From: Geopsychrobacter electrodiphilus DSM 16401
Lineage (GTDB): Bacteria; Desulfobacterota; Desulfuromonadia; Desulfuromonadales; Geopsychrobacteraceae
Length of the DNA: 64,000 nucleotides
Assembly (NCBI RefSeq): GCF_000384395.1
Contig: NZ_ARWE01000001.1
Coordinates: 372,001-436,000 of the forward strand
Direction of reading: 5' to 3'
Each line of letters starts with the position of its first letter. The first letter of the stretch is position 1. The notes under the pieces are model-generated. The model was not told the DNA's origin. It ran no database searches and worked only from the letters and a program-made list of their open reading frames with translations. Both the position numbers and the translations under genes were made by a program. Shown here piece by piece: positions 23,648 to 42,002 of this stretch.

Positions 23648-23748
23648 ATCATCCTTCGGTAGCTCAGCCGTCTTGTCGTAGTTTTTGAAGTAAAGACCCG
23701 CCGCTTTCCGTTCCCCCCTCACGGGAAGTTAGGCTTTTCGGGATTGCA
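23648..23748 (-). ncRNA. Probable GEMM-I (cyclic di-GMP/cGAMP) riboswitch
   Basis: Minus-strand reading shows the GEMM architecture: outer P1 AATCC/GGAT, a first hairpin closed by a GNRA tetraloop (TTCCC-GTGA-GGGGGG), the conserved linker ACGGAAAGC (consensus ACGCAAAGC), then the second hairpin CGGGTCT ... AGACGGCTGAGCTACCG (consensus GCCGGGTTACCG). It is followed by GCGCCCGGCTTTTTTTG, which may be part of the expression platform. The next gene on this strand is the PPC-like lipoprotein. Identified by eye from consensus features. Confidence 0.6.
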
Positions 23749-31153: not shown

Positions 31154-32179
31154 TCAATGCGTTTCCGTGACCTTGCGCAGTGCAGGATGTTCATCGGGGT
31201 TGATGCCGTAGTGTTCAGCCAGGGCGACGCAGGTGAGCTGTGAGATATAGGCTAAAAGTGGAGTGCGCGCCCAGCGTACCTCAGGAAACGGCATTTGCAG
31301 GTGCGCCGCTGGTGTCTGCTCACAGCCTAAACAGAGAGAAGGCACCGAACGCGCCAACAAGGCGGTGGTCACTGCCTCCTGGCTGTCCATTGGTTCATCG
31401 GCCGCTGTGAAAAGCACCACCCGGTCTTGCGGGCTGGCTACCGCAATCGGGCCGTGCAGGTATTCGGCGGTTGAATAAGCGAAAGCTGGAATGCCGACGG
31501 ACTCCTGCAGCTTCAGCGCGGCATCCAGTGCCCCGGCAACCGAAGGGCCGCGTGCCAGCCAGGTGACAGTGCGGGCACCGGTTAGAAATTCGGCAAGTTT
31601 GGTGGGTACACCAGCGGCATCGATGCTCAACATGCAATCCGCCAGCTGTGCTGCCGCCACCTCAATCTCATATCCAGCCAGTGCCGCGGCGATGAAGAAT
31701 TGGGCGATAACACTCTTGGTCGCAGGTACGGCGAGCTCAGGACCGCAGCCCAGGCGCAGCACATGTTGCGCAGATTTCAGCACATAGGCATCGGCCGCGT
31801 CAGCTTCTGAAATGGCGACCACCAGCGCACCCCGTTTCTTCAGCCATTCGGCGCTCGCAGCGACATCAGTTGATCTCCCCGAATAGGAAAACGCGTAGAC
31901 CACGGCATCACTCCAGTCGGCATCTGGCAGAGGCTGTGTCGTAAGCCAGGGTCGAAACTCAACCGGTTGATGTCCGGTTTGCAGGGTAAACAGGTAGGCG
32001 GCAAAGGTGCAGACGTTCCCTGAACTGCCACGCCCGATCAGCACCACCCGTGGCCGATCTGCGACCAATTGGCGAATCCTGGTGGCTTCGCGCTGCCAGC
32101 GTGCGGCTTCTGCACGCAGCATTTGCGGTGCCGTGCGCGCTTCTTGAGCCATATAACTCGTTGATGTCAACATGGTCAT
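31154..32179 (-). CDS. SIS-domain sugar isomerase (GlmS isomerase/AgaS-like)
   Basis: 341 residues with two SIS domains, each a sugar-phosphate binding Rossmann-like fold. The first shows GRGSSGN (about 50-56) and YAFSYSGRSTD (about 92-102); the N-terminal YMAQEARTAPQML matches the HxMxxEIxEQP lead of GlmS-type isomerases. Relatives interconvert ketose and amino-aldose phosphates or deaminate glucosamine-6-phosphate. Last gene of the coupled operon; its ATG overlaps the preceding stop as ATGA. A second ATG at 32173 has better spacing from AAGGAG. Confidence 0.8.
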   Translation of the reverse strand: MTMLTSTSYMAQEARTAPQMLRAEAARWQREATRIRQLVADRPRVVLIGRGSSGNVCTFAAYLFTLQTGHQPVEFRPWLTTQPLPDADWSDAVVYAFSYSGRSTDVAASAEWLKKRGALVVAISEADAADAYVLKSAQHVLRLGCGPELAVPATKSVIAQFFIAAALAGYEIEVAAAQLADCMLSIDAAGVPTKLAEFLTGARTVTWLARGPSVAGALDAALKLQESVGIPAFAYSTAEYLHGPIAVASPQDRVVLFTAADEPMDSQEAVTTALLARSVPSLCLGCEQTPAAHLQMPFPEVRWARTPLLAYISQLTCVALAEHYGINPDEHPALRKVTETH

Positions 32180-33012
32180 TTCTCCTTCGAGGGGGTGGTT
32201 TCAAGCGCCTTGGCCCGCCAGTAAAACTCGCTCGGCACATTGTTATGTTGATGACCAAGGATACGGGCACGCATGCCCACGTCATCGCCAAATAAAGCGG
32301 GTATCTGACTGGGATAGTGACGGAGCACTGCCAGCTTTTCTTCGACATCAACCGGTACGGCGTAGTGCCCGGCGGGGGACCGTTGCAGACGGGCGAGTGC
32401 CTGCAGAGGGCTATCCTGGTCGCCGCGGCCGATACGCGTATCGGCCACGTAGGGGAAATCTTCGTAAAACAGCAGTATGGCCCCAGCCGCAGCCAGGCGA
32501 ACCGCCACTTGCGCGCAGATCTGATGATCAACATGATGCCCGATACCCAGAGGGCTCAAGAGCAGAATTTTGCCCAGATTAAGACACAGGCGGCGCAGCA
32601 CCAGATAGAGCTCCTCGCTGTGCGCCAGGTCTTCGATGCGTGGCGATATCCAGCGTTCGCGAGCACTGAGATAAATCAGTTTGCCGGTCAATGGGCTGCG
32701 ACGATAAATGCCGTCGGCAAAGCCGAGATGGACGAAGTCGGTGTCAACCGAGTGCATGGCTGCGATATCTTCGCGCCGCCGGGTCTGAGAACTGACGTAA
32801 CCCCGGCGGTGTGAAATCTTGCTGTTGCCCTTGCTGGTCAGAACGCGTGGGGTGGCACAACTGACACTGACCACCAGGGTTGAGACCCGATCGCGCAGGG
32901 CGTGGAGTAAGCCACCGCAGCTCAACGCGGCGTCGTCCAGGTGGGGGGATAAAATCACCACCCGCTCAAATTCACTCCAGTCAAAGCGTTCAAGTAAGGG
33001 GAGTGTCTTCAT
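32176..33012 (-). CDS. PIG-L family deacetylase
   Basis: 278 residues. The PIG-L/LmbE zinc-hydrolase pattern is present: SPHLDDAALSCGG near residues 22-34 (His, Asp-Asp) and GHHVDHQ (about 169-175), giving the His/Asp/His metal site. Family members remove N-acetyl groups from GlcNAc conjugates (mycothiol and bacillithiol synthesis, GPI anchors). Both ends overlap their neighbours as ATGA, so translation is coupled with GH4 before and SIS after. Together with SIS it suggests an N-acetylated amino-sugar intermediate in the operon. Confidence 0.8.
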   Translation of the reverse strand: MKTLPLLERFDWSEFERVVILSPHLDDAALSCGGLLHALRDRVSTLVVSVSCATPRVLTSKGNSKISHRRGYVSSQTRRREDIAAMHSVDTDFVHLGFADGIYRRSPLTGKLIYLSARERWISPRIEDLAHSEELYLVLRRLCLNLGKILLLSPLGIGHHVDHQICAQVAVRLAAAGAILLFYEDFPYVADTRIGRGDQDSPLQALARLQRSPAGHYAVPVDVEEKLAVLRHYPSQIPALFGDDVGMRARILGHQHNNVPSEFYWRAKALETTPSKEK

Positions 33013-34283
33013 AGGGCGCTCGGCAGCAAATCCCCATAGACTTCTCGGGCACGGGCCAGCATGCTCCGGGCAATCGCCTCCTCGCCGACCAGCGGATTAG
33101 CGGCCAGCGCGGCGACCAGTGCCTGCGGGTTGCCGTTTGCCGCGGCTTGCGCGGTGAGTCGCTGGTAGCGTTCAAGCTGTGTGGCGAGGCCCGTAAAAGG
33201 GACAGGCAGATCAGGTGCCGCCAGCCGCTCGATCCCGTCGCTTGAGACCCTTACGCGCGTCTCGATGACCGTATCGGCGGCAAAAGCGAGCGTCGCCCCC
33301 TGGTTGGGCAGGTTCAGCACCAGCTCGTGGGGGGTAGGTGACGCCAGGGCCCGAATCACATTGACGGCTAAATCCCCGAATCCCGCCGAACCGCGATAGG
33401 TGCGCAGGTGCGGCGTTGCGCTTTTCCCTTCGCTCTTAAAGTGGGCATAGTACCTGTCCAGCGACGCCGCTACCACATCGCTGCGCGGTCCGACGCGCTC
33501 TGCCTGGGAGACAAAGGCTGCGGGGAACAGATAATAGGGCAGATAAGAGTTTGGCCAGTACCCGGGATTCTCCTCGGCTAAATGCCGGGAGAATTCAAAG
33601 CGCAGTTTGTGCTCTTCATCGAACTCCGGCGGTGCCACCAGCGGTGCCGACATTTCCCCTAACGGGGCACCATCAAGCAGGATATCGCTGTACCAGGTGG
33701 CGTGGTTGAGACCGTTACAGCGAAAATGATAAGGGGCCTGAGCGCCGAGCGCCTGGACGATGGCCTGCAGGTCTTCATCCGATTGATCGCAGAGACCGAT
33801 CACTTTCACGCCACCCTGATCGACCAGGGCCTGGGTCACAATGTTACTCGGGTTGGTGTAGTTGAGGATGAGCGCCTGTGGCGCCAGGGCTTTCACCTTG
33901 GTCGCGACGCGTAAGGCTTCCGGTACTGAGCGCAGGGCAAAGAAGAAACCACCCGGGCCAACAGTCTCCTGGCCGGGAATGTCAAACTCCAGCGGCAGGG
34001 TTTCATCAATGCGGCGGGCCTTAAGGCCCCCTGGGCGGGTTGAGTTAAGAATCAGGTCCGCCCCTTCAATGGCCGCTTCGAGGGAGTCGGCAACCTCGAC
34101 GTTAAAGACCCCGGCGTTGCGGGCCATGGCGCTGGTGAGTCGTGCGACAATCGCCAGCCGGTCGACATCGGTATCGTACAGCCGCACGGTTTTCAACGGC
34201 AATTCAGCTGCGTGCAGAATTAACGCCTGCAGCAGCCCCGGGGTGTAGGCGCTACCGCCCCCCAATATACTTAAGGTTTGCAT
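33009..34283 (-). CDS. Glycoside hydrolase family 4 (6-phospho-glycosidase type)
   Basis: 424-residue NAD- and metal-dependent glycosidase. N-terminal dinucleotide motif ILGGGSAYTPG (about 6-16), NPSNIVTQAL (about 143), and the metal-binding Cys/His pair in RCNGLNHATW (about 188-197). Family 4 enzymes open phosphorylated alpha- or beta-glycosides by an oxidation-elimination mechanism. The start overlaps the end of the PfkB gene by 13 bases. In an operon with a disaccharide synthase it may turn over the phosphorylated product or process an analogue; anomer and sugar are not predictable here. Confidence 0.85.
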   Translation of the reverse strand: MQTLSILGGGSAYTPGLLQALILHAAELPLKTVRLYDTDVDRLAIVARLTSAMARNAGVFNVEVADSLEAAIEGADLILNSTRPGGLKARRIDETLPLEFDIPGQETVGPGGFFFALRSVPEALRVATKVKALAPQALILNYTNPSNIVTQALVDQGGVKVIGLCDQSDEDLQAIVQALGAQAPYHFRCNGLNHATWYSDILLDGAPLGEMSAPLVAPPEFDEEHKLRFEFSRHLAEENPGYWPNSYLPYYLFPAAFVSQAERVGPRSDVVAASLDRYYAHFKSEGKSATPHLRTYRGSAGFGDLAVNVIRALASPTPHELVLNLPNQGATLAFAADTVIETRVRVSSDGIERLAAPDLPVPFTGLATQLERYQRLTAQAAANGNPQALVAALAANPLVGEEAIARSMLARAREVYGDLLPSAL

Positions 34284-35161
34284 AAAGTCCCTTCGCTTAA
34301 GTCAGCCATAATGCTGGGATCCGTGATCAGACCACCAGTTTGCTTTAGAATTCGTGCCGCCGCATCGGTACCGAGCTCTACCGCTGCCTTGGGTGTGGCA
34401 CCGCGCAGCAGACCTGCAATCACACCGCCACAGAAGGCGTCGCCGGCTCCGGTTGGATCAAGGACCAGGGTTTTCACTGCCCGGTTTTGTATCGCCGTTC
34501 CCTCAAGTCCGCCGCAAACACCGTTGGCCGCGAGGGTGACCAGCACCGAATCTGCTGCACCGGCCAAACGCTGTGGTGCCGTGGCGACATCGCTACAGGC
34601 CCTCAGCGCTTCTTTCTCGTTGAGAACCAGCAGATCCCAGGCGGGGCTGTTGCGCCTGGCAAGCTGGTCCAGTCGGCCTGGGCTCCAACTGCCACTGACT
34701 GAAATTCGTGCCCCATCCCGCCGTGCTTGCGCCAGAGGCTCTTCAAGTCGATCAGCCTCTTCCAGGCCCGGCACGTGTATCCAGCGACTTTTGGGGAGCT
34801 GCTTAACCTTGGTCAGAACCTCAAACTCGCTCGTGCTCACGAAAGAGCGGTCACTTGAATTGGAGAAGACCAGCGAAATGGCCGGGTTATCGCTCGCCGC
34901 GAGTGGTTCGAGCCTGATCCCCAGACGTTTTGCCAGCAGCACCACCGCTTGATCAACGATGCCCTGTCCCAGCGGGACGCACAGGCAGACCTGCAATCCG
35001 AGGGCAGCAGCGACCGTCGCACTGTTGAGCGCTCCACCCAAGGCCAGTTGTATGCCGTCAACGAACAGCTCTTCCCCTGCGGGTGGGCGTTGGTGAGGTG
35101 GGACAAAGACCTCAAAATAGGCCATCCCGACAACGACAAGATCAGTTTCGCGTTCGGTCAT
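34271..35161 (-). CDS. PfkB-family carbohydrate kinase
   Basis: 296 residues with the ribokinase fold: GGALNSATVAAALG (about 37-50, PfkB signature 1 region) and LDPTGAGDAFCGG (about 232-244, signature 2 with the catalytic Asp of GAGD). N-terminal VVVGMAYFEVFVPP is atypical. Substrate unknown; sugars, nucleosides or aminosugars are all used in the family. The ATG overlaps the stop of the upstream fusion gene by one base. Confidence 0.82.
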   Translation of the reverse strand: MTERETDLVVVGMAYFEVFVPPHQRPPAGEELFVDGIQLALGGALNSATVAAALGLQVCLCVPLGQGIVDQAVVLLAKRLGIRLEPLAASDNPAISLVFSNSSDRSFVSTSEFEVLTKVKQLPKSRWIHVPGLEEADRLEEPLAQARRDGARISVSGSWSPGRLDQLARRNSPAWDLLVLNEKEALRACSDVATAPQRLAGAADSVLVTLAANGVCGGLEGTAIQNRAVKTLVLDPTGAGDAFCGGVIAGLLRGATPKAAVELGTDAAARILKQTGGLITDPSIMADLSEGTLCKP

Positions 35162-37431
35162 CAGACGCTCCGCACGGCTTGCATAAATTTTTCACCCCAG
35201 TTCACCACGTCGTTTTCGGTGACGATGGCGGCCATCCGTTGGCAACGATAGGTCATCTCATCCGCACCCATAGTGAGTGCTTGATGGAGGGTTTTCGACA
35301 TAGAGTCGGCATCGTAGGGATTGGTCAGCAGCGCCCCATGCAGTTCGACTGCTGCGCCGGCAAATTCTGAAAGAACCAGAACCCCAGGAGTTTCGGTGAC
35401 GCTTTTTGTGGCGACATATTCCTTGGCCACCAGATTAAGCCCGTCTCGCAGTGGCGTGATCCAGGCAACATCGCAGGCCGCGTAGTGCGCAATGACCTCT
35501 GCGTAAGGGAGGGAGCGATAGAAATAGTGCACGGGTGTCCACTCAATGGTTGCGAAACGGCCATTGATGCGGCCAACGATCCGATCGACCTCAATTCGCA
35601 GGCTTTCATAAATCTCCATGCCGGGGGCTGCAGGCGTGATGATATTGAGCAGGGTAACGCTACCGCGCAGTTCCGGGTGATCCTCGAGCAGATGTTCGAA
35701 GGCTTGCAGTTTTTCGAGGGACCCCTTGACGTAGTCCAGCCGTTCGATCGAAACGATCCCCTTGACGCCGCCTAGCAACGCCTTGATGCTGGTGATCTTC
35801 TTCTGCACGGCGGGCTTCTTGACGATTTCTGCGATGACCCCGACATCAATCCCTACAGGATGGGCTCCCAGTGCCACGCGACGACCGGAAACCTCGATGG
35901 CCGAGGTCATTGAATCGACGCCCAGGGCGCATCCGTAGGTCACAAACGCCGGCGCGCAGGAGATTGTTTCGAGGACCTCAAGCGGTGAGTAGGAACGCAC
36001 CGCATCGACGAAGTTTTCGACATAGCGAGGGATATGAAAGCCGACATAATCACACTGTAGCAGGCTGCCAATGATCTCGCGTCGCCAGGGGAGAATGTTG
36101 AATACGTCGCTGGAGGGGAAGGCGGTGTGGTGGAAAAAAGCGATACGCAGGTCCGGCCGCAGTGGCCGCAAAAACGCCGGGACCATCCACAAATTATAAT
36201 CATGAATCCAGATAATCGCCCCTTCGGCGGCTTCTTGTGCCGCCTGCTCGGCGAAGATGCGGTTCACGTCAAGGTAGCGTTCCCAGTGGGCCTGATTAAA
36301 TTTTGCAATGCTCGGAAAGGTGAAAATAATCGGCCAGAACGCCTCCTTCGAAAATTTCTTGTAAAAGAGATCGACATCCTCTTCTGTCAGCGCAATCCGG
36401 GCGACTTGCAGGTTCGGGTAGCGCTTGCTGTCAACCGCGACATGCTGAATGAAACCTTTGGGGGCGCGACTGGCCTGCAGCGACCAGGCCACCCACGAGC
36501 CGTGGCGCGCACCGGCAAAAAAACCGAGCAGCGTCGGAATGATGCCATTGGGACTTTTTGGCCGTTTCTGTAGAACCACCCCATCTTTAACCACCTCGTC
36601 AAATGGCGGCCGGTGATAGACCATGACCAGTTCGGCTTCGCCGCGCTCATCCATCAGGCGTTGAGCCTTGCGCGTACTTTCAATCTGGGTTCCATGGTGT
36701 GCCAGCCCGGCCAGGATTCCACCGCAACCTTGCTCCGTGGCAATATAGACGCGCGGCATTTTGCGCACCCGCTCAATCAACGCGGGTTCGGCGCCACCGA
36801 CGACCACTCCGCGAAAGCCGCTGGTGTACATGGAGAGGTCGTTTAAGGTGTCACCGGCGACAACGACTGAATCCAGGTCAAAGCCTTCGCTCTCGGCAAG
36901 CTGTTGCAGTGTGGCGCCTTTATTGACGCCCCGCGGCAGGACGTCGAGATAGCGGTTTGCGGAAAAGAGCAGGTCGCAATCAAGGTCCTCAACCGCCGCG
37001 CGTAATTCGTCGCTGATCCCGCCCTCATTAACGAAAAACGAGCAGCGTCGCTCCTGGGGCACCGTTTGTCGATGCAACAGCGGAAACTTGGCGAGCTGCT
37101 GCAGGACATATTGCGAACCGGGCCAGCGGGCGGCGATGTCATGGTGGAGCGGATCGACCGGGCTCAGGTCGCCATGCATAACCGTCGCGCCGACATCAGC
37201 AATAATGTAGTCGGGCTGCGGCAGCGTCGAATCGCTGAGCAGCGGGATGATCGACTCTAAGCCGCGGCCGGAGACATAAATCAATTTCGCTCCCGCCAAA
37301 CCACCACTGAACAGGTCGCGGATCCGTCGTCGCGTTTCTTGGGTTCCTGCGAGCAAGGTACCGTCAAGGTCAGTTGCCAACACCAGTTTATTGGTCATGA
37401 TGAGCGGTTGCGGTTTATTGATTAAGTGCAA
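35161..37431 (-). CDS. HAD phosphatase-GT20 synthase fusion, probable glucosylglycerol-phosphate synthase/phosphatase
   Basis: 756 residues. The N-terminal HAD domain (about 12-255) has DLDGTLLAG, the SGRG motif and GDTLNDLSM, as in sucrose-phosphate phosphatases. The C-terminal GT20 domain (about 275-750) has ERLDYVKG and WITPLRDGLNLVAKEYVA, like OtsA and GgpS. The HAD-first order and WITPLRDGLNL favour the GgpPS type, which makes glucosylglycerol from ADP-glucose and glycerol-3-phosphate, over trehalose-phosphate synthase; glpD and glpK nearby support this. The start is TTG at 37431 with AAGGAG 8 bases before; ATG 37398 has no ribosome site. First gene of the coupled operon. Confidence 0.75.
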   Translation of the reverse strand: MHLINKPQPLIMTNKLVLATDLDGTLLAGTQETRRRIRDLFSGGLAGAKLIYVSGRGLESIIPLLSDSTLPQPDYIIADVGATVMHGDLSPVDPLHHDIAARWPGSQYVLQQLAKFPLLHRQTVPQERRCSFFVNEGGISDELRAAVEDLDCDLLFSANRYLDVLPRGVNKGATLQQLAESEGFDLDSVVVAGDTLNDLSMYTSGFRGVVVGGAEPALIERVRKMPRVYIATEQGCGGILAGLAHHGTQIESTRKAQRLMDERGEAELVMVYHRPPFDEVVKDGVVLQKRPKSPNGIIPTLLGFFAGARHGSWVAWSLQASRAPKGFIQHVAVDSKRYPNLQVARIALTEEDVDLFYKKFSKEAFWPIIFTFPSIAKFNQAHWERYLDVNRIFAEQAAQEAAEGAIIWIHDYNLWMVPAFLRPLRPDLRIAFFHHTAFPSSDVFNILPWRREIIGSLLQCDYVGFHIPRYVENFVDAVRSYSPLEVLETISCAPAFVTYGCALGVDSMTSAIEVSGRRVALGAHPVGIDVGVIAEIVKKPAVQKKITSIKALLGGVKGIVSIERLDYVKGSLEKLQAFEHLLEDHPELRGSVTLLNIITPAAPGMEIYESLRIEVDRIVGRINGRFATIEWTPVHYFYRSLPYAEVIAHYAACDVAWITPLRDGLNLVAKEYVATKSVTETPGVLVLSEFAGAAVELHGALLTNPYDADSMSKTLHQALTMGADEMTYRCQRMAAIVTENDVVNWGEKFMQAVRSV

Positions 37432-37697: not shown

Positions 37698-38777
37698 TTA
37701 ACTCTCCAAAATATTCGGAATTCGGGTGGTTTCCCCCTTATGGTTCGTCAGCGTGTATTCCTTGTCGTTTTTATCCGTAATCGAATAGTTCGGCATCAGC
37801 GGAATTTTGCCGATATTGGTCGCCAGCACGTACATCGGCTGGGCCAGACCGGTGGTGTGACCGCGCAGGGCGTCACGGATCAGTTCGGCTCCTTTTTCGA
37901 CCGGGGTGCGAAAATGATCGATCCCCGGAGCCGCTTCGCAGTAGAACAGGTAATAGGGACGGATCCGGGTGCGCAATAGTTTCTGATGCAGCTCTTTGAA
38001 GGTCGGCACGTCATCGTTTATCCCCTTTAGCAGCACCGCCTGATTTCCGACGTTGATGCCGCAACTCATCAGGTCAAACACGGCTTTTTCAGTCTCAGCG
38101 GTAATTTCCTTGGGGTGGTTGCATTGGGTATTGATCCAGACCGGCACCTTATGAAATCCGCCGATCGCTTTTTTCAGGCCCTCGGTAATCCGTTGCGGCA
38201 GAACGATCGGCAGGCGTGAGCCGATGCGGATCATCTGAATATGGGGGATGGTGCGCAGGCTGCTGATCAGGTATCCCAATTTATCATCTGGCAGCAGCAG
38301 GGGATCGCCTCCGGTGATCAGCACGTCGCGGATCTCCTCGTGTTCGCGAATCCAGGCCAGGCCTTCTTCAACATCAAAGCGCAGCTGTAGATCCTGATCG
38401 ACGACCAGCTCTTTACGGAAACAGTGACGGCAGTAGATGCCGCATTCCTGGATGACGGTAAAGGCGATACGGTCGGTGTACTGCCGTGCGATGCTGTCGG
38501 GGCGAACCTCGGTGGTATCACGGTTCTCCTTGAACATCAGGTAATCATCCATGCCGAATTCATTGACCTTTTCCTGCATCGAAGGAATCACCTGCATGCG
38601 TATCGGGCAGTTTGGATCGTCCCTGTCCATCAATGAGGCAAAATAAGGGGTGGTCCCCCATTTGGTGTTTAAAGACCGGATCGCCTCCTTTTCACCGTCA
38701 GAGACATTGATATAGGTTTCGAGTTTTTCCAGGGTGTTGACCTGATTCTGAATCTGGTGAACCCATGGTTCTTGCAT
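37698..38777 (-). CDS. KamA-family radical SAM aminomutase, substrate uncertain
   Basis: PLP- and SAM-dependent 2,3-aminomutase family, 359 residues (lysine 2,3-aminomutase is usually about 400-420). Cluster motif CGIYCRHC (CxxxCxxC, about 112-119), LITGGDPLLLP and PYYLFYCEAAPGIDHFRTPV. The two Asp residues that bind the lysine side chain in lysine 2,3-aminomutase (in CDLS and VDAPGG) are Glu in FYCEAAPG and absent or replaced in VLATNIGK, so lysine may not be the substrate. beta-Amino acids such as beta-glutamate and N-acetyl-beta-lysine are osmolytes, and the flanking genes are osmotic. No AblB-like acetyltransferase is adjacent. Confidence 0.8.
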   Translation of the reverse strand: MQEPWVHQIQNQVNTLEKLETYINVSDGEKEAIRSLNTKWGTTPYFASLMDRDDPNCPIRMQVIPSMQEKVNEFGMDDYLMFKENRDTTEVRPDSIARQYTDRIAFTVIQECGIYCRHCFRKELVVDQDLQLRFDVEEGLAWIREHEEIRDVLITGGDPLLLPDDKLGYLISSLRTIPHIQMIRIGSRLPIVLPQRITEGLKKAIGGFHKVPVWINTQCNHPKEITAETEKAVFDLMSCGINVGNQAVLLKGINDDVPTFKELHQKLLRTRIRPYYLFYCEAAPGIDHFRTPVEKGAELIRDALRGHTTGLAQPMYVLATNIGKIPLMPNYSITDKNDKEYTLTNHKGETTRIPNILES

Positions 38778-38792
38778 TGAAACTTTCCTTTC

Positions 38793-38835
38793 AAAAAAAA
38801 ACCGGCCGGAGGATTTTGTCCTTCGGCCGGTTTGG
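38793..38835 (-). terminator. Rho-independent terminator of proVWX
   Basis: On the minus strand AAACCGGCCGAAGGA...TCCTCCGGCCGGTTT then a nine-T run, between proX and the KamA gene. Confidence 0.9.
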
Positions 38836-38852
38836 TTTTATCAGCGTTTTAC

Positions 38853-39869
38853 TTAAGCGGCGTTACGCGCTGCTGCCAGCCATGCATCCCAGGTACTCTG
38901 ATTCTTTTTGATCCACTCTTTTACGTGGCGCTCGATATCTTTCTGCGACTTTTCGCCGTTCTGCATCTTGGTGTTTTGCTCGTTAATGTCACCCAATGGC
39001 AGGGTAAAGACCTTAAAAAATTCTTTCGCCGCAGGGTTCTTGGCTAAAAAATTCTTGTTGGCGACTATCCGGATGTCGGCGACCACAAACCCGAGTTTGA
39101 TTGGATCGCTGACCGCGCCATCGACACCACTGACGGTCAGGCGATCGACCATCGGTTTTTGCGCTTCAGTCGGGTTGATCTCGGGCACGTTGATCCACAT
39201 GACATCTTTGCCGGGCTTGAATTTGAAGACGGTCCAGTTTGGTGCCCAGGTATAGAAGAATGCCGGTTTGCCAGCATTGTACCGCGCCAGAGCATCGGCC
39301 ATGCTTGCCGAGTAGGCGGCTTTGATCAGGTTGATGTCATCCTCAAGGCCATAGACCTTCATGTGGTGGGCGATCGTCCCTTCACAACCCCAACCGGCGG
39401 GGCAGGCGGTTAGATCGGCTTTGCCGTCGCCGTTGGCATCAAAGGCCGCCTTGACTTCGGGGCGTTTGAAATCTGCGAGTGATTTGATATTGAATTTATC
39501 AACTTCCTTTTTCGAAACTAGGTAGCCTTGGAGCCCGCCGGCTTTAACGACATAACCTACCTTTTCGGCCTTTTCATAGAAGTTCTTCGGTAACTGACCA
39601 TTGTGGACCGGGAACCAGCCGTTGGTCCAGTAGTCGAGGTCGCCCAGTGCGAGAGATTGGTAAAAAAGCGGATTGGTTAAGTCTTTGGGTTTTTCAACCT
39701 TGTAGCCAAGCTCCTTCAGGCCTTCACGTACCAGGGCTTCCTGAAAGTAGCCGGTGTTCCAGGTCGCTCTGGCCGGTTGGACCTTGACCCCCTTGCCGGG
39801 CAGTTGGTTTACCGCAAACGCGGGGATTGTAAATGACAGAAGTAACAGGACGAGCATAATTCGTTTCAT
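38853..39869 (-). CDS. proX: Glycine betaine/proline ABC transporter, substrate-binding protein
   Basis: 338-residue periplasmic binding protein of the ProX/OpuAC type. Signal peptide MKRIMLVLLLLSFTIPAFA. The mature part shows GVKVQPARATWNTGYFQEAL and DYWTNGWFPVHNG with the Trp residues that cage quaternary amines. AAGGAAAAAAC precedes the ATG. Last gene of the proVWX operon, 43 bases after proW; followed by a strong terminator. Confidence 0.92.
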   Translation of the reverse strand: MKRIMLVLLLLSFTIPAFAVNQLPGKGVKVQPARATWNTGYFQEALVREGLKELGYKVEKPKDLTNPLFYQSLALGDLDYWTNGWFPVHNGQLPKNFYEKAEKVGYVVKAGGLQGYLVSKKEVDKFNIKSLADFKRPEVKAAFDANGDGKADLTACPAGWGCEGTIAHHMKVYGLEDDINLIKAAYSASMADALARYNAGKPAFFYTWAPNWTVFKFKPGKDVMWINVPEINPTEAQKPMVDRLTVSGVDGAVSDPIKLGFVVADIRIVANKNFLAKNPAAKEFFKVFTLPLGDINEQNTKMQNGEKSQKDIERHVKEWIKKNQSTWDAWLAAARNAA

Positions 39870-39912
39870 GTTTTTTCCTTTTTTAGAGTGAGGTGTGAAT
39901 TGAACTTATAAG

Positions 39913-40752
39913 TTATCTCTTACCTATACCCTGGGTGATCCGATCCAGGACCATCGCTAGCAGCACAATCGCCAGGCCGCCGATGGTGGCCAGGCCGATC
40001 TCCAGGGTGTTCAAACCTTGAACCACCGGATTTCCCAGACCTCCAGCGCCGATCAATGCGGCGATAACGACCATCGACAGGGCCATCATGATCGTCTGGT
40101 TGAGCCCGGCCATGACCGAGGGCATGGCGAGCGGGAACTGGACTTTGCGCAAGACCTGCCAGGGGGTGGCGCCAAAGGCGATCGCAGCTTCGACCAGTTC
40201 GGGGTGAACCTGGCGAATACCGAGGCTGGTCAGGCGGATGATCGGCGGCAGGGCAAACACAATGGTCGCCAGGATTCCTGAGACGGTGCCGATACTGAAC
40301 AACATCACCACTGGTACCAGATAGACGAAGGGCGGGGTGGTCTGCATGACATCGAGACAGGGGCGCAGATACATCTCAAAACGGTCACTTCGACCCGCCA
40401 TGATGCCGAGGGGAATCCCGACCACCGCACAGAAAACCACGGCGCAGATTACCATCGCCAGCGTGGTCATGGTGTAGTCCCAAAGCCCGAGATAACCGAT
40501 CAACACGAAGGTCAAGATGGTAAAAACGGTCACTCGCTTGCCGGCATAACGCCAGGCGAGAGCAGCAAAAATCAGGATAAATACAAACGGCGGGACACTG
40601 GCGAACAGCCATTGCAGCCCTTCGAGACTTAGCTCGACCGGCGCCTTGATAATTTGAAAATATTCGCGGTAATTAAGTACAAGCCAATCGACGGCGGACT
40701 GCACCCATTCATCAAGCGGAATCAGTTGAGTGGTAAAATCAAATATATGCAT
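39913..40752 (-). CDS. proW: Glycine betaine/proline ABC transporter, permease
   Basis: 279-residue inner-membrane permease with five to six helices. The ABC-permease EAA-type loop is ELVEAAIAFGATPWQVLRKVQ (residues about 186-206). Length and sequence fit ProW/OpuAB without the long N-terminal extension of the E. coli protein. 23 bases after proV. Confidence 0.92.
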   Translation of the reverse strand: MHIFDFTTQLIPLDEWVQSAVDWLVLNYREYFQIIKAPVELSLEGLQWLFASVPPFVFILIFAALAWRYAGKRVTVFTILTFVLIGYLGLWDYTMTTLAMVICAVVFCAVVGIPLGIMAGRSDRFEMYLRPCLDVMQTTPPFVYLVPVVMLFSIGTVSGILATIVFALPPIIRLTSLGIRQVHPELVEAAIAFGATPWQVLRKVQFPLAMPSVMAGLNQTIMMALSMVVIAALIGAGGLGNPVVQGLNTLEIGLATIGGLAIVLLAMVLDRITQGIGKR

Positions 40753-40775
40753 TGAATTATCTCTTAAGTTTTAGG

Positions 40776-42002
40776 TTATTCTGCGGTTTCGGTTTCAGCC
40801 TGTTCGGTACGGTGCAGGGTGCGCAGAAACAGGTTCTTGGAGACGGCGCCCTGATATTTGCCAGTTTCATCTAAGACCGGTAACGGCCAGGGGTGGTTGG
40901 CAACTTCGGGCAGAATATCTTGCATCGAATCACTGATCCGAGCAGGGGTCACATCGGGCAGGTAAGCGCTGGCAAGAATTTGAGGATATTCCGGCCGATC
41001 GAGCAATTCCCTCAGGGAGTCCGTCGAGACGATCCCTTGAAATTGATGATTGCTATCGAGAACATAGCCGTAATCACGGTCATTTTTGATCAGGCGCTGC
41101 AAGGCGGGGCGGATTCCCTTACCGTCGGTGACGATAATTGTGACTTGGGAGTCGCTGGCGATGTCTCCGGCAGAAAGGATGTTGGTCTGATCAACGCCAC
41201 GGAAGAAGGCGCGCACATAGTCATCGGCCGGATTTTGCAGAATCTCTTCCGGGGTGCCGACCTGAACTACGCGGCCCCCCTCCATAATGGCGATTCGGTC
41301 GCCGATGCGCATCGCCTCATCGAGGTCATGCGAGATAAAGACAATGGTGCGTTTGGATTTGGCCTGCAACTTCAGCAATTCATCCTGCATCTCGGTGCGG
41401 ATCAGAGGATCGAGAGCCGAGAAGGCCTCGTCCATCAGCAGGATATCGGGATCAACCGCCAGTCCACGTGCCAGGCCAACCCGCTGCTGCATGCCGCCGG
41501 AGAGTTCGTTCGGCATACTTGCCGCCCAGGCTTCAAGGCCGACCTGTTCCAGCGCCTGTAAGGCGCGTGCCTCGCGGGTCGTTTTGTCGATACCGTCCAT
41601 TTCCAAACCGAAAGCAGCGTTCTGCAACACGGTCATATGTGGCATCAGGGCAAAGGATTGAAACACCATGCTCATCTTCTTGCGGCGCATTTTGATCAAC
41701 TGGTTATTGTCCATGCTGATGATATTTTCATCATCAATCAAAACCTCCCCGGTTGTCGGTTCAATAAGGCGGTTGAGCATGCGCACCATGGTTGACTTGC
41801 CCGACCCTGAGAGCCCCATGATGACAAAGATCTCGCCGGTATAGATTTCGAAACTGGCATCCTGCACGCCGACGGTGGTTTCGGTTTTTTTAAAAATAGC
41901 GTCTTTGTCCAGTCCTTGTTTGAGCAAGCTCATGGCTTTTTTTGGATGTGGGCCAAAAATTTTATAGAGATTTTTTACTGAAATTTTTACGCTGGGACTC
42001 AA
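40776..42002 (-). CDS. proV: Glycine betaine/proline ABC transporter, ATP-binding protein
   Basis: 408 residues. Walker [10 protein letters not shown] (about 64-72), signature LSGGMQQR (about 168-175), Walker [13 protein letters not shown] (about 190-201). Two CBS domains fill the C-terminus (about 285-400), the part that senses ionic strength in OpuA. The start is TTG at 42002 with AAGGAG 6 bases upstream. First gene of proVWX, an osmoprotectant uptake system. Confidence 0.94.

Follow-up and report, generated by a model that had tools for sequence, protein, structure and literature searches.

What do five overlapping genes at 31154-37431 on the minus strand of a DNA window from Geopsychrobacter electrodiphilus DSM 16401 make? 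The window is the whole stretch of 64,000 nucleotides that was analyzed (NCBI RefSeq assembly GCF_000384395.1, contig NZ_ARWE01000001.1, positions 372,001 to 436,000), and all coordinates below refer to it unless a locus is named. The first gene encodes a HAD-GT20 fusion expected to act as a solute-phosphate synthase and phosphatase, and it is followed by genes for a PfkB-family kinase, a GH4 glycosidase, a PIG-L-family deacetylase and a SIS-domain protein; these four downstream genes are called the module here. The locus is a real, conserved and mobile osmolyte operon. With confidence that stops just short of even, we propose that its product, which it would also recycle, is an alpha-linked N-acetylglucosamine glycoside serving as a compatible solute.

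All five open reading frames were confirmed, and the gene junctions overlap by 1 (synthase/PfkB), 13 (PfkB/GH4), 4 (GH4/PIG-L) and 4 (PIG-L/SIS) bases, as the first-pass annotation of this DNA had reported. That annotation also described a fusion of GT20 and HAD domains. Both are present, and the order is HAD at the N terminus followed by GT20. The synthase has a TTG start (756 amino acids) with AAGGAG seven bases upstream, and an alternative ATG at 37398 would give 745 amino acids. It is the one GT20 match in the source genome. Every domain of the operon exceeds its own Pfam cut-off (Table 1), and the G+C content of the operon is 59.0%, compared with 55.0% for the window.

A scan of genome contigs with GH4 returned 20 loci, mostly from Burkholderiales (Rhodoferax, Polaromonas, Massilia and Janthinobacterium), with one Deltaproteobacterium and one Myxococcales metagenome-assembled genome (MAG) beyond that order. 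PfkB adjoins GH4 in 19 of the 20 loci, and the remaining one (L039) begins inside GH4. PIG-L follows GH4 in all 17 loci that extend far enough, and SIS comes next in 14 of 16, being absent from L029 and L030. The genomes of these two loci carry another related SIS protein elsewhere, which scores ∼127-129 bits against the SIS profile. In 12 of the 20 loci the synthase is found upstream in the same orientation, separated by no more than one gene, and in L036 it lies beyond an opposite-strand symporter. Conservation of the neighborhood had been put forward as a check on the operon. It holds in most loci, where the five genes have stayed together as a unit, but in L028, L032, L033 and L035 the synthase is on a different contig from the other four genes.

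The tight packing of the genes is itself conserved among relatives. By our own gene calls, at loci where both genes were called adjacent, PfkB and GH4 share 13 bases in 11 of 20 cases, 4 bases in seven and 1 base in one, and are separated by 27 bases in the last. The GH4/PIG-L overlap is exactly 4 bases in 15 of 17 loci. NagB was considered as a substitute for SIS in Massilia and Janthinobacterium and rejected: the search for PF01182 covered 19 genomes (G662, G670 and G674 were left out), and G664-G666 gave no match and each hold another SIS protein.

The characteristic motifs of the downstream enzymes are largely intact. For GH4, the nearest chains in the Protein Data Bank (PDB) are 6-phospho-glucosidases. 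Its profile gives 173-245 bits for entries named as 6-phospho- or maltose-6'-phosphate enzymes (one entry in this range, at 181, is named cellulase) and 80-106 bits for alpha-glucosidase, alpha-galacturonidase and one unnamed GH4, so in this comparison it is closer to the 6-phospho enzymes than to the unphosphorylated ones. In the NAD-binding and metal-binding motifs, residues G8, G9, S11, P15, C165, D166 and H194 are invariant in seven sequences, and the C-D and GLNH motifs are present in 22 of 22. A C-D rather than a C-N pair marks an alpha-type GH4 enzyme. The window protein reads CDQ and the 6-phospho-alpha-glucosidases 1u8x, 6dux and 6vc6 read CDM or CDQ, whereas 1s6y reads CNV and ChbF of Escherichia coli CNI; the beta GH4 enzymes in our alignments likewise carry C-N.

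The other three proteins are similarly intact. The TGAGD motif of PfkB is found in 20 of 21 sequences, with L034 as the exception. The four nearest solved relatives of PIG-L are enzymes that deacetylate pseudoaglycones of glycopeptide antibiotics, and two of these entries are named for N-acyl-glucosamine (pseudo-teicoplanin). Of its two zinc motifs, H-x-D-D is kept as SPHxDDA in 18 of 19 sequences (not L032), and H-x-D-H shows as VDH in 18 of 19, where the exception is a 59-amino-acid fragment. For SIS, the nearest NCBIfam model is the NagB-II glucosamine-6-phosphate deaminase, and the PDB matches are 3hba (a putative phosphosugar isomerase) and 8eol (a glucosamine-6-phosphate deaminase) at 95 bits each. 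The motif S-T/A-A-E-x-L/Q-H-G is present in 15 of 16 SIS sequences, and 14 of 16 have a basic motif at the C terminus. We take these to be the catalytic Glu-His region and the C-terminal Lys of NagB-II/GlmS-type enzymes.

These assignments bear out the earlier suggestion, in that all four downstream enzymes would suit an amino sugar that is phosphorylated and N-acetylated, and from them we infer the reactions, their substrates, the order of deacetylation and phosphorylation, and the part of PIG-L in making or breaking the solute. In synthesis, GT20 would transfer the sugar of a nucleotide donor onto a phosphorylated acceptor, whose phosphate the HAD domain would then strip. In recycling, PIG-L would take off the N-acetyl group, and PfkB would then phosphorylate C6 of the amino sugar, supplying the 6-phosphate that is given elsewhere by a phosphotransferase system (PTS). 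GH4 would split the alpha-(6-phospho)glucosaminide into glucosamine-6-phosphate and the free aglycone, and SIS would deaminate glucosamine-6-phosphate to fructose-6-phosphate and ammonia. Each recycling product would thus be the substrate of the next enzyme. The solute is expected to be small, non-reducing and used under osmotic stress. Candidate aglycones are glycerol, by the kinship of the synthase with glucosylglycerol synthases, or glucose; the product would be N-acetylglucosaminyl-glycerol or N-acetyltrehalosamine, respectively.

The position of PIG-L in this scheme can be argued in two ways. In mycothiol assembly a glycosyltransferase, a phosphatase and a PIG-L enzyme act in three steps, and by the same logic the synthase, phosphatase and a MshB-like PIG-L could yield a free glucosaminyl-polyol that PfkB, GH4 and SIS alone recycle. 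We consider this arrangement quite improbable. Gene order as such does not separate the two cases, but PIG-L sits between GH4 and SIS in all 14 scan loci that have SIS, a position that argues for recycling. The chb system of E. coli, from which our order of steps is proposed, also sets deacetylation ahead of GH4: according to excerpts of PMC12791066 and PMC9402603, its GH4 enzyme cleaves glucosamine-6-phosphate glycosides only after deacetylation by ChbG.

The distribution of the module tracks that of the synthase by genome. A protein over the cut-off of TIGR02398, the curated glucosylglycerol-phosphate synthase (GgpS) model, is present in 19 of 20 module genomes; the exception, a MAG, has its module on a contig of 4.7 kb. 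Among 250 genomes of Burkholderiaceae (the family of L022), TIGR02398 matches occur in 12 and the module GH4 in four, all four within the 12 (Fisher P = 3e-6, or 6e-5 without the center genome). Among 235 genomes from the phylum of L037, five have a module-type GH4, five have a TIGR02398 match and three have both (P = 5e-5). Both samples were centered on a module carrier. Of the 20 genomes that matched GH4 in the second, five were taken as module-type: four scored 545-742 bits, and G1016, whose match is partial (298 bits), was included for having PIG-L and SIS as neighbors. The other 15 (212-293 bits, with neighborhoods examined for two) were taken as ordinary GH4.

The two module-type genomes of the second sample that have no TIGR02398 match are those of L141 and L142. 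L142 is a decayed copy, with half of GH4, symporter fragments and near full-length PIG-L and SIS genes, and with no PfkB or synthase in the contig. At L141 (4102-6281, minus strand) a module-type PfkB-GH4 pair stands alone, and no synthase, PIG-L or SIS gene was found nearby.

The surroundings of the module are the company of a salt-stress solute. MscS-type channels are encoded beside it in 10 of 20 loci, in nine of them directly after SIS or PIG-L. Other neighbors were identified for some loci only and include Na+/H+ exchangers (L020, L024 and L033), betaine transporters (L022, L024 and L026, and likewise the window) and TRAP transporters (L022 and L024). SSF symporters stand beside the set in L036, L037 and L139, that of L036 being nearest to sodium/glucose cotransporters.

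These symporters, together with the detached synthases of L028, L032, L033 and L035, could suggest that the four genes salvage an N-acetylglucosaminide from the cell wall or the environment and are co-transcribed with an osmolyte synthase by chance, and the enzymes themselves do read as amino-sugar salvage. This explanation is improbable. It is opposed by the genome-level tracking of the GgpS-type GT20 and by the recurrence of osmotic neighbors. Moreover, no transporter gene lies inside the window operon, and the transporters among the identified neighbors of Burkholderiales loci are of the betaine and TRAP kinds.

A more serious competitor concerns the product of the synthase itself. The protein fails the OtsA model TIGR02400 (438 bits versus a cut-off of 564.85), and OtsA R301, which we take to be a phosphate contact, aligns with its A591. 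On the donor side, OtsA residues D131, H155, R263, K268, D362, N365 and E370 do not differ between module-linked and module-less enzymes, and no donor-sugar switch was seen at the residues compared. The two groups differ beside acceptor-side residues, where module-linked enzymes have S306, K347 and L291 and module-less enzymes have K306, H347 and K291, in a comparison that counted L034 with the module group even though its synthase is of the other kind. At 291 and 306 the window synthase has the residues of OtsA. L145, which with 782 bits scored highest among the TIGR02398 proteins that we met, carries R291, R306 and H347. These acceptor-side differences are suggestive only.

In a GT20 tree, module-less GgpS proteins form one 13-row clade (support 100/99), and the window protein falls outside it. 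So do the other module-linked GT20 proteins except that of L034, with no resolved order among themselves. Within the two genome samples, the module accompanies seven of the eight enzymes outside this clade and none of the nine inside it (P = 4e-4), or five of six and none of nine without the two center genomes (P = 0.002). Placement relative to this clade is a test of our own, applied to a clade that contains no characterized enzyme. Long branches in the tree are L111 (Kitasatospora, 37% identity) and L145; L148 was left out as a duplicate of L139.

Gene organization separates the groups as well. Among genes seen in full length, the HAD and GT20 parts are fused in module-linked enzymes and encoded separately in the module-less clade. 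A gene for a GpsA-type glycerol-3-phosphate dehydrogenase lies upstream of ggpP-ggpS in nine of 12 module-less loci (L095-L098, L101, L102 and L108-L110, named by RefSeq in L108 and L110), seemingly as a dedicated acceptor supply. It was absent from 23 module loci and five unlinked synthase loci, 17 of these 28 having 1.1 kb or more of sequence ahead of a module-type synthase.

If the solute were plain 2-O-alpha-glucosylglycerol, PfkB would phosphorylate its C6 and GH4 would release glucose-6-phosphate and glycerol, a third breakdown route beside GghA and the phosphorylase GGP, while PIG-L and SIS would be otherwise employed. We regard this as less likely than the N-acetylglucosaminide but as a serious rival, and several findings favor it: the TIGR02398 score of the synthase, the alpha-type GH4 motif, the isolated PfkB-GH4 pair in L141 and the module beside a synthase of the glucosylglycerol clade in L034. 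Excerpts of PMC10873239 also report known fused GgpPS proteins as glucosylglycerol enzymes, and they call breakdown in heterotrophs mysterious before the work on GGP in Marinobacter. However, plain glucosylglycerol offers no job for PIG-L, present in 17 of 17 informative loci, and makes SIS superfluous. It is also at odds with the position of module-linked GT20 proteins outside the module-less clade and with the lack of a gpsA-type gene in all 17 of the synthase loci from module genomes with enough upstream sequence. We prefer the alpha-N-acetylglucosaminide, which explains all five genes; glucosylglycerol explains three of the five.

Several observations nevertheless weigh against an N-acetylglucosaminide. 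The synthase passes TIGR02398, and published work assigns fused enzymes, among them that of Stenotrophomonas rhizophila, to glucosylglycerol (excerpts of PMC10873239 and PMC6753628). Our tree held no characterized fused GgpPS such as that of S. rhizophila, which is the main hole in the argument. Since donor residues are alike in both groups, an N-acetylglucosamine donor is not visible in the sequence, and it is the partner enzymes only that suggest an amino sugar in the solute. Probed with point-changed fragments, TIGR02398 leans weakly toward the module-less-type residues K/R291, K/R306, H347 and E494 (1.4-2.0 bits, compared with 2.5-4.6 bits at invariant columns), has hardly any preference at 328 and 330, and favors the window's residue at 460. 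Given these weak preferences, the acceptor-side columns are not used as proof of another acceptor.

Exceptions in distribution count on the same side. L034 has the module beside a different, split ggpP-ggpS and is the sole module carrier inside the module-less clade; the module-like GT20 of L149 comes from a genome that has no module-level GH4; and L141 has its PfkB-GH4 pair without adjacent PIG-L or SIS in a genome lacking a TIGR02398 match. Three of the four module-positive Burkholderiaceae, the center genome included, were already known from the GH4 scan. SIS falls well under the NagB-II cut-off (Table 1). MscS genes also stand beside module-less GgpS in seven of 12 loci, so they mark osmolytes and not this module. 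We advance only tentatively the full claim: that glycerol or glucose bears an alpha-linked N-acetylglucosamine (or glucosamine) in a compatible solute not previously described as such, and that a horizontally spread operon is dedicated to making this solute, through a GT20 lineage beside glucosylglycerol synthase, and to regaining its carbon and nitrogen with the four downstream enzymes.

By its sequence affinities the gene set is foreign to its class. Relatives of PIG-L (E up to 1e-10) occur in one of 277 genomes of the class sample, the source genome alone, and GT20 proteins over the TIGR02398 cut-off again in that genome only. GH4 relatives were found in six of 395 genomes of the phylum, including the window's own, and the five others are at most 36% identical. 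As these are merely distant, the block seems to come from outside. The same gene order recurs in Burkholderiales and Myxococcota, the closest complete sets (L021 and L023) share 67-83% identity across the five genes, and the window synthase clusters with Burkholderiales sequences in the GT20 tree. The simplest reading of these affinities is that the five genes moved together as a block.

Two further sets of relatives were inspected. L027, on a contig labeled as a Patescibacteria MAG and perhaps mis-binned, carries the first three genes at 91%, 85% and 87% identity to the window. Plasmid relatives of PIG-L (eight records, at most 38% identity) were rejected as further module carriers, as no module was present in the four of eight neighborhoods examined.

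Table 1. Coordinates of the operon, its synthase domains and the adjoining upstream genes in the window
Feature	Coordinates	Strand	Evidence
HAD-GT20 fusion, predicted solute-phosphate synthase/phosphatase	35161..37431	-	TIGR02398 672.8 bits (cut-off 569); S6PP + Glyco_transf_20
HAD phosphatase domain (S6PP), residues 4-236 of the 745-amino-acid form	36691..37389	-	Pfam PF05116 167 bits
GT20 glycosyltransferase domain, residues 259-742	35173..36624	-	Pfam PF00982 453 bits; OtsA-type active-site residues kept
PfkB-family sugar kinase	34271..35161	-	PF00294 82 bits; putative C6 phosphorylation of glycoside
GH4 NAD-dependent 6-phospho-glycosidase (predicted), alpha-type CDQ motif	33009..34283	-	PF02056 129 bits; PF11975 (GH4C) 100 bits
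PIG-L family N-deacetylase (predicted)	32176..33012	-	PF02585 44 bits (cut-off 28.2)
SIS-domain phosphosugar deaminase/isomerase (predicted), NagB-II-like	31154..32179	-	SIS Pfam 83 bits; NF046059 125 bits, under cut-off 430
ProV-ProW-ProX betaine/proline transporter and KamA-family aminomutase, just upstream of operon and taken as its context only	37698..42002	-	ProX NF008334 438 bits (cut-off 215); KamA family TIGR00238 281 bits (cut-off 199); ProV and ProW named from sequence only

Some neighboring features merit brief mention. Between ProX and the operon lies the KamA-family aminomutase (359 amino acids, 37698-38777, minus strand), which falls short of the model cut-offs for arginine, lysine and glutamate 2,3-aminomutases (362, 347 and 338 bits) and may make a beta-amino acid solute. 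A c-di-GMP-I riboswitch is found at 23655-23744 on the minus strand (45.6 bits, over the gathering score). In L022 (8645-9127) a small protein with bacterial SH3 domains is encoded between synthase and PfkB; it has the same place in L020, L024 and L026 and follows the synthase at the contig end in L107. On a Kitasatospora plasmid (L111, 6747-7643), a PfkB gene whose product is 26% identical to the window's lies just upstream of a HAD-GT20 fusion.

If the solute is an amino-sugar glycoside, such compounds would join the bacterial osmolytes along with a complete dismantling route, and the automatic name glucosylglycerol-phosphate synthase would be wrong for a whole branch, with many annotated proteins making something else. 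If it is glucosylglycerol, the operon would represent a new way of breaking it down, a step termed mysterious in heterotrophs before the Marinobacter work (PMC10873239, in excerpt). Our searches of open-license papers showed none that describes the five-gene set or such a solute, in agreement with the first-pass annotation, which knew of no pathway with these genes.

Known systems nevertheless share parts of the scheme. The window enzyme resembles GgpPS (TIGR02398) in its HAD-GT20 fusion order, its score over the cut-off and its OtsA-type donor residues. Unlike GgpPS, it lies outside the sampled module-less GgpS clade, is without that clade's K/R at 291 and 306 and H at 347, has no adjacent gpsA-type gene and is followed by four extra enzymes. 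Assembly of mycothiol and bacillithiol uses a glycosyltransferase, a phosphatase and a PIG-L enzyme on an alpha-N-acetylglucosamine conjugate, but that glycosyltransferase is GT4 rather than GT20, and the operon has no cysteine ligase and does have a recycling arm. The archaeal chitin pathway Dac-GlmA-GlmD pairs a PIG-L deacetylase with a SIS-type glucosamine-6-phosphate deaminase; it has no GH4 and no synthase, and its substrate is chitobiose. Trehalosamine-type compounds are known from Streptomyces, where excerpts of PMC4490520 and PMC10241594 report them as an antibiotic rather than an osmolyte and name no such operon.

The two closest parallels come from osmolyte turnover and from chitobiose use. 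In Marinobacter ggpPS-ggp, an osmolyte synthase and a breakdown enzyme are likewise encoded together (PMC10873239, in excerpt), but there the breakdown enzyme is a single GH13_18 phosphorylase in place of kinase, GH4, PIG-L and SIS. The E. coli chb system (the ChbBCA PTS, ChbF of family GH4 and the deacetylase ChbG), together with NagB, combines phosphorylation, N-deacetylation, GH4 cleavage of a glucosamine-6-phosphate glycoside and deamination, as proposed here. The operon differs in having a kinase for the PTS, PIG-L for ChbG, SIS for NagB and an alpha-type GH4 motif, in the 29% identity of its GH4 to ChbF, and in its coupling to a synthase.

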